Source: Haloterrigena salifodinae (lineage in GTDB: Archaea > Halobacteriota > Halobacteria > Halobacteriales > Natrialbaceae). From it: a stretch of DNA of 64,000 nucleotides. This document shows, piece by piece, positions 54,813-57,667 of the stretch (position 1 is its first letter; the number at the start of each line of letters is the position of its first letter). The position numbers and the translations under genes are program-made. The notes beneath the pieces were generated by a model. The model saw only the letters and a list, made by a program, of their open reading frames with translations. It did no database searches and was not told where the DNA came from. The stretch covers positions 868,001-932,000 of the forward strand of contig NZ_RQWN01000002.1 in NCBI RefSeq assembly GCF_003977755.1. Reading direction: 5' to 3'.

Positions 54813-55247
54813 ATGGCAGTCGAAGCTACGAGCGCAGGCGCGATCCTCTTCCGCGATACGCGGGGCCGGCGCGAGTATCTTCTACTCAAGAGCCGCCCAG
54901 GCGATTGGGAGTTTCCCAAGGGCGGTGTCGAAGGAGATGAAGAGCTACAGCAGACGGCGATCCGCGAAGTAAAGGAAGAGGCAGGTATCGAGCAGTTCCG
55001 GCTCCTCGACGGCTTTCGCGAGGACTACGACTACGTCTTCGAGGCGAACGGCAAGACGATCCACAAGACCGTTCACCTCTTCGTGGCGAAGTCCTTCGAG
55101 GCGAGCGCGGAACTTTCGAACGAACATCGCGACCTTCAGTGGCGCGATTACGAACAGGCAGTAAACACCGTCACGCAGGACGGTCCGCGAGAGATCTTGG
55201 AGCAGGCCCACGGTTTCCTCGACGAACGGGAGGAGGACGAGGAGTAG
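54813..55247 (+). CDS. Nudix hydrolase, bis(5'-nucleosyl)-tetraphosphatase-like
   Basis: This 144-residue Nudix protein has a complete Nudix box at residues 38-60 (GGVEGDEELQQTAIREVKEE, then AGIE). It starts MAVEATSAGAILFRDTRGRR, with KSRPGDWEFPKG before the box. The pattern is that of archaeal diadenosine tetraphosphatases, which cut Ap4A to ATP and AMP and may clear stress nucleotides. The C-terminal part (WRDYEQAVNTVTQDGPREIL) is as in the family. It is transcribed alone. Confidence 0.9.
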   Translation: MAVEATSAGAILFRDTRGRREYLLLKSRPGDWEFPKGGVEGDEELQQTAIREVKEEAGIEQFRLLDGFREDYDYVFEANGKTIHKTVHLFVAKSFEASAELSNEHRDLQWRDYEQAVNTVTQDGPREILEQAHGFLDEREEDEE

Positions 55248-55355: not shown

Positions 55356-56414
55356 GTGGACCGGTACACGACCGAGTTCGCGTTCGAACTCCGGACCTGC
55401 CGCTGGGCGGAACGCGCCTGGCCGCCCGACGAGCCCGCCAGTGACGACCACGCGGTCGTCGTCGCCCGACAGCTCGGCACGAAACGTCGCCGCTGGGACA
55501 CCATCGTCCTCGAGTGCGACCCCGAAGCGCTCCGCGAGCGGGCGCAATTCGGCGCCGAACGTCTCGACGGCGACCTCCTGCACGTCGTCCGCAACGCCCC
55601 CGCCGAGTGGAGCTACTACCGCGACTGTCTCCCCCATCCCGGCTACCCGTGGCGCTACGTTCGCGAGGCCATCCACCGGGCCGACGACCGCGGCATCCTC
55701 GAGACGCGCAAGAACGGGAATCGCATCGAGATCCGCCGGAAGTGGCCGTATCCTGACGACTGGGTTCGGCGGATCGTCGCGATCGAGAACAAACCCGATC
55801 TGGACGCCAGCGCCGCCCGCGCGCTGGGCTCGCAACTCGAGTACGACGTCGCCGTCGGGCTGGCCGACGAGGTCTGGGTCGCCACGCGGCGGACGGGAGA
55901 CCCCGTCGAGCGCGCGTTGTTCGAGGACCTACCCGTCGGGACGGGGATCCTCGCGCTCGAGCCCGAAACCCTAAACGCCGAGGTTGCGTGGTTCCCCCGC
56001 TCGCTGGCCGTCGACGACCCCGGCACGCGGATCCTCGAGCGACCCGACGGCGGTCGCCGGGACGGCTCCGCGGCGCGGTTCGAGTACGTCGATCCGGACG
56101 CGAAGCGAGCGACGCGCCTCGAGATCGCCGAGCGCGCCTACGAACGCGGCTGGCGCTCGTTTGCCGATACGATGCGCCCCGACTGTCGGCACTTCGAGTT
56201 GCGCTCGCAGGACGGCCTGCAACTCGAGCCCTACTGCGCCGCGAAGGGGCGGTGCCAGACGGCCGCGGAGTGTTCCGGCGGCTGTGCCGAGTTCGAGCCT
56301 GAGCCACCCGTCTGGCGAACGCGCGGCTGGCCGATCGAGGGCGGCCCCGGGAAACGGTGTCAGCGGTTGCTCGAGGATCGACGACGACGGCGTCGACCGG
56401 GATTAGAGCAGTAG
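55356..56414 (+). CDS. DUF5787-type protein, possible PD-(D/E)XK nuclease with cysteine cluster
   Basis: This 352-residue halophile protein opens MDRYTTEFAFELRTCRWAER. At about residues 134-163 it has DDWVRRIVAIENKPDLDASA followed by LGSQLEYDVAVGLADEVWVA. This fits the PD-(D/E)XK pattern: Asp134/135, Glu144-x-Lys146, and a QxxY element (Gln160, Tyr163). Cys15 lies near the start. Five cysteines (277, 294, 300, 306, 310) lie near the end, as in Cas4/AddB nucleases where N- and C-terminal cysteines hold an Fe-S cluster. The nuclease reading is inference; I recall the family only as uncharacterised. Confidence 0.7.
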   Translation: MDRYTTEFAFELRTCRWAERAWPPDEPASDDHAVVVARQLGTKRRRWDTIVLECDPEALRERAQFGAERLDGDLLHVVRNAPAEWSYYRDCLPHPGYPWRYVREAIHRADDRGILETRKNGNRIEIRRKWPYPDDWVRRIVAIENKPDLDASAARALGSQLEYDVAVGLADEVWVATRRTGDPVERALFEDLPVGTGILALEPETLNAEVAWFPRSLAVDDPGTRILERPDGGRRDGSAARFEYVDPDAKRATRLEIAERAYERGWRSFADTMRPDCRHFELRSQDGLQLEPYCAAKGRCQTAAECSGGCAEFEPEPPVWRTRGWPIEGGPGKRCQRLLEDRRRRRRPGLEQ

Positions 56415-57163: not shown

Positions 57164-57667
57164 TTACTCGGAGCTCTCGACCTCGAGTTCCTCGCGGTCG
57201 ACGGTCAGGCGGAACGTAGGGACGGTGCGGTACTCGACCTCGACGACGCCCTTGCGGCGCAGGCTCTGGAGCCCCGAGCGGACGTCCTCGGCTTCGGGGT
57301 CGACATCGAACCCGTCGCGCAGTTTGTGAAGGACCGAGACGACGCTTTCGGACTCCTCCTCGGGGCCGGCCAGCACGGCGACGATCTGCGTCTGCAGCTC
57401 CGGCACCCGGATCCGGGAGGGGACGCCCTCGTCCTCGGGATCGCTCTCGATGCCGGGTTCGACGTCGACGAGGTCGTTCGCTTCCGTCGTCGCGCGGATC
57501 AGGCTGTTGTCGTCCCGGAAGTAGTAGTCGCCCAGTTCGTTCTCGAGGTACTGGTGGACCTCGCTGCCGCTCTCCATGTCCCACCGCTCTTGCAGTTCCG
57601 AGTTCTTCGTCGGCTGTAGCTCCACCACGTCCGCCAACCGTTCTGTGGCCTCCTCCGAGAGCGTCAT
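57164..57667 (-). CDS. DUF5797-type winged-helix-like protein
   Basis: This 167-residue acidic protein reads MTLSEEATERLADVVELQPT, KNSELQERWDMESGSEVHQY, LENELGDYYFRDDNSLIRAT and ends FRLTVDREELEVESSE. The pattern of helices and a beta pair fits two small winged-helix units, and I recall it as the halophile family DUF5797. Function is unknown; a DNA-binding role is inference. It lies on the minus strand, 77 bases downstream of the MFS gene, and may be cotranscribed with it. Confidence 0.75.
   Translation of the reverse strand: MTLSEEATERLADVVELQPTKNSELQERWDMESGSEVHQYLENELGDYYFRDDNSLIRATTEANDLVDVEPGIESDPEDEGVPSRIRVPELQTQIVAVLAGPEEESESVVSVLHKLRDGFDVDPEAEDVRSGLQSLRRKGVVEVEYRTVPTFRLTVDREELEVESSE

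Follow-up and report, generated by a model that had tools for sequence, protein, structure and literature searches.

The window analysed here, a stretch of 64,000 nucleotides from Haloterrigena salifodinae, contains an open reading frame that is a real gene and a member of the DUF5787 family (Table 1). In a profile search it scores 408.7 bits against PF19100 (cut-off 25) and covers positions 1-278 of the 278 in the profile; the match is likewise full-length for a second copy elsewhere in the same genome (G000:C1:1600810-1601802; L002), a member of the clade termed B below. Pfam treats PF19100 as a single domain of uncharacterised function, and its description holds neither the two clades, nor the active-site pattern, the insert or the C-terminal PCNA-interacting (PIP) tail of clade B that we report. 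DUF5787 is mentioned nowhere in the literature searched. Searches of PHROGs, PADLOC and NCBIfam returned nothing meaningful, and we therefore see no defence or phage link for the family. Both genes flanking the window copy (clade A) are conserved neighbours. In 68 of the 74 loci with enough flank, DUF5787-A is preceded by a co-directional NUDIX hydrolase gene, but the gap ranges from 38 to 3219 bp, so a tight operon is not general. In 74 of 79 loci, DUF5787-A and the gene for DUF5797 converge. Neighbours of the clade B gene are eIF2-gamma, an Rpb7-type RNA polymerase subunit gene, DUF359 and a PAN-like AAA ATPase. The A and B neighbourhoods are stable and core; by themselves they give no function. 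Where it is found upstream of DUF5787-A, the NUDIX hydrolase is unusually conserved (83-100% identity).

Table 1. Genes and predicted protein segments at the DUF5787-A locus, in window coordinates; residue numbers are those of the window protein.
Feature	Coordinates	Strand	Characteristics
NUDIX hydrolase, conserved upstream co-directional neighbour	54813..55247	+	PF00293, E 2.6e-19
DUF5787 paralog A (window protein)	55356..56414	+	GTG start, 352 aa; PF19100, E 2e-122, full profile length
Predicted first helix, residues 5-22	55368..55421	+	Invariant Glu7, Glu11, Glu19; near-invariant Cys15; low-confidence models
Predicted beta1-beta2, residues 33-54	55452..55517	+	R38-Q39-x-G41, R45, Asp48 in 84/84; strands from models
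Winged-helix-like segment, residues 56-128, between Asp48 and ExK strand	55521..55739	+	Low-confidence models, sub-significant matches
Predicted beta3, residues 137-147	55764..55796	+	Glu144-Asn145-Lys146-Pro147 (ExK) in 84/84
Predicted helix and start of beta4, residues 151-171	55806..55868	+	Gln160, Asp164, Asp171 (QxxxD) in 84/84
Four-cysteine module, residues 275-318	56178..56309	+	C277-x16-C294-x11-C306-x3-C310, four Cys in 84/84; resembles DUF7140 tail
DUF5797, conserved convergent neighbour	57164..57667	-	PF19110, E 1.5e-81; haloarchaeal, uncharacterised

The spread of the family was assessed in 393 genomes drawn evenly across the phylum, counting PF19100 matches over the curated cut-off. 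The haloarchaeal order has such matches in 80 of its 81 sampled genomes, each of the 80 carrying two copies or more, and the approximately 312 genomes outside it have none, which bears out an earlier description of the protein's family as confined to halophiles and annotated as nothing more than a DUF. Among 14 control genomes, DUF5787 is present only in Haloferax volcanii. Two weak non-haloarchaeal matches were placed outside the family: one (L076/G228) falls inside a methionyl-tRNA synthetase, and the other (G003) is a similar partial match in an open reading frame of equal length. The sole negative in the sampled haloarchaeal order is G134, and the deep haloarchaeal families are split, with both copies in G406, G407, G409 and G410 and none in G405 and G408. 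The absence from G134, G405 and G408 may place the origin of DUF5787 within the haloarchaeal order. These three genomes are 98%, 78% and 92% complete, respectively. No relative was found in the viral contigs searched, and a single plasmid record carries the gene, on an 828 kb replicon. Given this order-wide, non-viral distribution and near-absence from plasmids, DUF5787 is a core-chromosomal haloarchaeal family, and its inheritance is probably vertical. The replicon in question, from Natronorubrum bangense (NZ_CP031306.1; L107), is labelled a plasmid and bears DUF5787-A together with its neighbourhood, which suggests a secondary chromosome with core genes.

A midpoint-rooted tree of 84 members separates, with high support, clade A (57 sequences of the window type) from clade B (27 sequences). 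Mean identity amounts to 62% within A and 59% within B, as against 33% between them. Genomes in which both copies were read have one A and one B (e.g., G000, G201, G078, G304 and G391), and the same holds for the deep-family genomes G406, G407, G409 and G410. The two clades are ancient, and the duplication that produced them would predate the divergence of the sampled haloarchaeal families. All 27 clade B proteins feature Q-x-x-L-x-x-[FW] within their last 20 residues, typically as RRQSGLDRFG at the very end of the chain, preceded by a linker that varies. The motif is found in none of the 57 clade A members of the tree, in none of 79 clade A proteins from named genomes and in the last 12 residues of none of the 217 ORF-length frames of the window. 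A PIP motif, QXXhXXaa, is present at the C-terminus of NucS and NreA (PMC4929162), and in Haloferax its removal from NreA mimics loss of NreA (PMC4929162). The clade B motif mostly contains one aromatic residue instead of two, as does that of FEN1 from the same genome; FEN1 of the window genome ends in QTGLDRWT, to be compared with QSGLDRF in clade B. The C-terminal end of NreA (PF04895), a gene and family distinct from DUF5787, reads LQSNLSAFSARD. Judged by these tails, clade B is very probably a PCNA partner, and the window protein, as a clade A member, is by its sequence not a partner of PCNA through a C-terminal PIP motif.

The conservation figures that follow refer to an alignment of the 84 members, covering both clades. 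Invariant in all of them are E7, E11, E19, R38, Q39, G41, R45, D48 and R62 in the N-terminal part, Y132, W136, E144, N145, K146, P147, Q160, D164 and D171 in the middle part, and E259, R260, R267, R321, C277, C294, C306 and C310 in the C-terminal part. As mean identity between A and B is only 33%, the conservation of the ExK motif and of the C-terminal cysteines goes far beyond chance. The preliminary description had proposed a Cas4/AddB-like nuclease on the basis of D134, D135, E144, K146, Q160, Y163 and the cysteines C15, C277, C294, C300, C306 and C310, all of which do occupy the positions given. Its nuclease-like active site is upheld as far as E144-x-K146 and Q160 are concerned, but not for the catalytic aspartate: D134 aligns with a gap in most members, and at position 135 the Asp gives way to E, S, Q, N, R or H in 12 of 76. 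Asp135, moreover, sits at the start of the predicted ExK strand itself and is therefore unlikely to be a metal ligand. The Asp134/135 pair was rejected on both counts, and Asp48 is the likely candidate for the metal-binding Asp. The proposed QxxY variant of a QxxxY motif also had to be abandoned, as Y163 varies (R/H/Y/T/K/L and others) and the invariant motif on the helix after ExK is Q160-x3-D164 (QxxxD). Missing from the earlier list were the invariant acidic residues E7, E11, E19, D48, D164 and D171, which we judge weightier. In the PD-(D/E)XK core an Asp heads the second strand and ExK lies on the third. The corresponding residue set of DUF5787 (E7/E11, D48, E144 and K146) is present in 84 of 84 members, with its placing on helix and strands predicted; Asp48 on strand 2 and ExK on strand 3 would reproduce the canonical order with an insert between them.

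AlphaFold2 models were too poor for use, both for the full protein, run with an alignment of 80 A homologues (pLDDT 48.3), and for residues 1-232 (pLDDT 40.5). They largely agree in placing a first helix within residues 5-21, strands in 33-39 and 49-54, helices and a hairpin in 56-128, a strand with ENK at 137-145 and a helix with QxxxD from 151 onwards; a further strand at 172-176 appears in the second model only. At these low pLDDT values the order of elements fits a PD-(D/E)XK core with an insert, and we infer a fold of this kind for DUF5787. Foldseek produced no significant match with either model, and searches of PDB sequences with the single protein, an A+B profile, the insert or the insert-free core yielded nothing significant. 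A GntR-type repressor aligns, through its recognition helix and wing, with residues around 96-128 at a sub-significant E of 0.5 for the chain, and Foldseek returned weak ArsR/Fur/MarR-type winged-helix matches, none of them significant. Together these are suggestive of a winged-helix-like DNA-contacting segment at residues 56-128, the sequence of which varies among members.

Of the six cysteines singled out in the preliminary description, C277, C294, C306 and C310 are invariant, as are Glu144 and Lys146, in the comparison of homologues that it had called for; C300, by contrast, varies freely (absent in most A and all B proteins), and Cys15 is kept in 81 of 84, the exceptions being L079 and L080 (both Ser) and L051 (Ala), which are otherwise intact. 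The window protein also has C54, C91 and C335, which had not been listed. From this pattern the four C-terminal cysteines appear to form a complete, self-contained ligand set for which Cys15 would not be needed, and the bound metal is presumably Zn or a 4Fe-4S cluster. The module resembles the tail of DUF7140 (PF23601), with which it shares the features CxHFE...PYC...C and an x11 spacing; sub-threshold matches were seen in 8 of 37 members (best E 0.0014). The spacing in the DUF7140 tail is C-x2-C-x14-C-x11-C, however, as opposed to C-x16-C-x11-C-x3-C, and DUF7140, unlike DUF5787, is the tail of a predicted membrane protein. In L183 and L182, this Cys-rich tail (CxxCxHFE...PYC...C) terminates a predicted haloarchaeal membrane protein.

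For Cas4, PDDEXK_1, Hjc and NucS, profiles made from phylum sequences were compared with DUF5787 by hhalign alongside column-shuffled controls, and none of the four scored better than those controls. As a positive control, Cas4 against PDDEXK_1 reached 96.5%, and NucS with PDDEXK_1 gave 89%, whereas DUF5787 stays below 1% with either Cas4 or PDDEXK_1. Since these pairs are detected and DUF5787 is not, membership in that branch is unsupported, and the kinship with Cas4/AddB suggested earlier loses its footing. Hjc, a true member of the superfamily, also goes undetected by the other three profiles, so these null results leave superfamily membership possible for DUF5787. The residue order in Hjc (PF01870) is E on a helix, D on strand 2 and ExK on strand 3. 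DUF5787 has the same E-D-ExK order, and its best local match with Hjc, not significant, pairs the ExK strands (RIVAIENK with KRYLSIEVK); the two differ in their profiles, whose similarity is not significant, in the ~70 residues that separate D from ExK in DUF5787, and in the Cys4 C-terminus of the latter. NucS/EndoMS (PF01939), a separate gene in the window genome, differs in domain layout and shows no profile similarity above shuffled controls.

These observations bear on several explanations. A true iron-sulfur nuclease of the Cas4/AddB/Dna2 type, in which Cys15 and three C-terminal cysteines hold a 4Fe-4S cluster around a PD-(D/E)XK core, would account for the near-invariant N-terminal Cys and the invariant C-terminal ones that flank ExK in the right order, and DUF5787 does share with Cas4 and PDDEXK_1 (AddB, RecB type; PF01930, PF12705) both the Gln on the helix following ExK and cysteines on either side of the core. 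Against it stand the replacement of Cys15 in three members with all other motifs intact, four invariant C-terminal cysteines where three are expected, spaced x16-x11-x3 and not CxxCx5C, QxxxD in place of QxxxY, and the failure of both profiles to find the family. The "one plus three" cluster of the preliminary description thus does not hold, and we regard this kinship as decidedly improbable. A non-catalytic DNA-binding or scaffold protein, with a winged helix and a Cys4 zinc module and with ExK in a structural role, would make sense of two segments that can both be purely structural or binding, but it leaves E7/E11/D48/E144/K146/Q160/D164 invariant in both clades while the winged-helix segment varies, and we hold it to be improbable too.

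An active enzyme of another fold, for instance one modifying nucleotides or nucleic acids, deserves more weight, though we still consider it unlikely. The poor models do not establish the fold, the upstream NUDIX gene of clade A fits a nucleotide-related role, and many residues besides the ExK set are invariant (R38, R45, R62, W136, R260 and R267). A different enzyme chemistry could also make use of the invariant acidic residues. Yet the order of E, D, ExK and Q together with the predicted secondary structure matches a PD-(D/E)XK core, a role in DNA metabolism is suggested by the clade B PIP box, and the NUDIX gene lies at a variable distance. On balance, it seems somewhat probable that DUF5787 constitutes a haloarchaea-specific pair of metal-dependent DNA-processing proteins that are most probably nucleases and bear a PD-(D/E)XK-like site, with B tethered to the clamp. 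We favour this reading because the charged set is invariant in all 84 members across clades of 33% identity, and because the models, poor as they are, share the order helix-strand-strand-(helices + hairpin)-strand(ENK)-helix(QxxxD).

In a metal-dependent nuclease of this type, four elements would build the metal-binding site: helix 1 would supply Glu7 and Glu11, strand 2 would contribute Asp48 from its start, strand 3 Glu144 and Lys146, and the helix that follows Gln160 and Asp164. With one or two divalent metals bound there, the enzyme would cleave DNA phosphodiester bonds. The winged-helix-like segment between strands 2 and 3 would hold duplex DNA beside the active site, and the C-terminal lobe would be stabilised by the self-contained four-cysteine site, holding either Zn or a 4Fe-4S cluster. 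Clade B would be loaded on the PCNA clamp through its C-terminal PIP box for a replication or repair task, and clade A, which has no PIP box, would probably either work clamp-free or take another substrate. Nuclease activity, the identity of the metal, PCNA binding and the winged-helix identity of the segment are what we infer for DUF5787 from these patterns. More tentatively, and at somewhat less than even chances, DUF5787 might be a new PD-(D/E)XK family with a winged-helix reader inside its core, inserted between the metal-binding Asp and the ExK strand, that through a duplication in the ancestor of most haloarchaea gave rise to a PCNA-tethered B and a clamp-free A and forms an unrecognised part of replication or repair.

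The pair is kept in nearly all haloarchaea and is undescribed in the literature searched, and it probably belongs to core DNA metabolism. With the ExK, Asp48 and PIP assignments, what was a domain of unknown function now offers specific residues to mutate. Haloferax volcanii is a genetically tractable model; as it carries DUF5787, the predicted PCNA link and nuclease activity are directly testable there.
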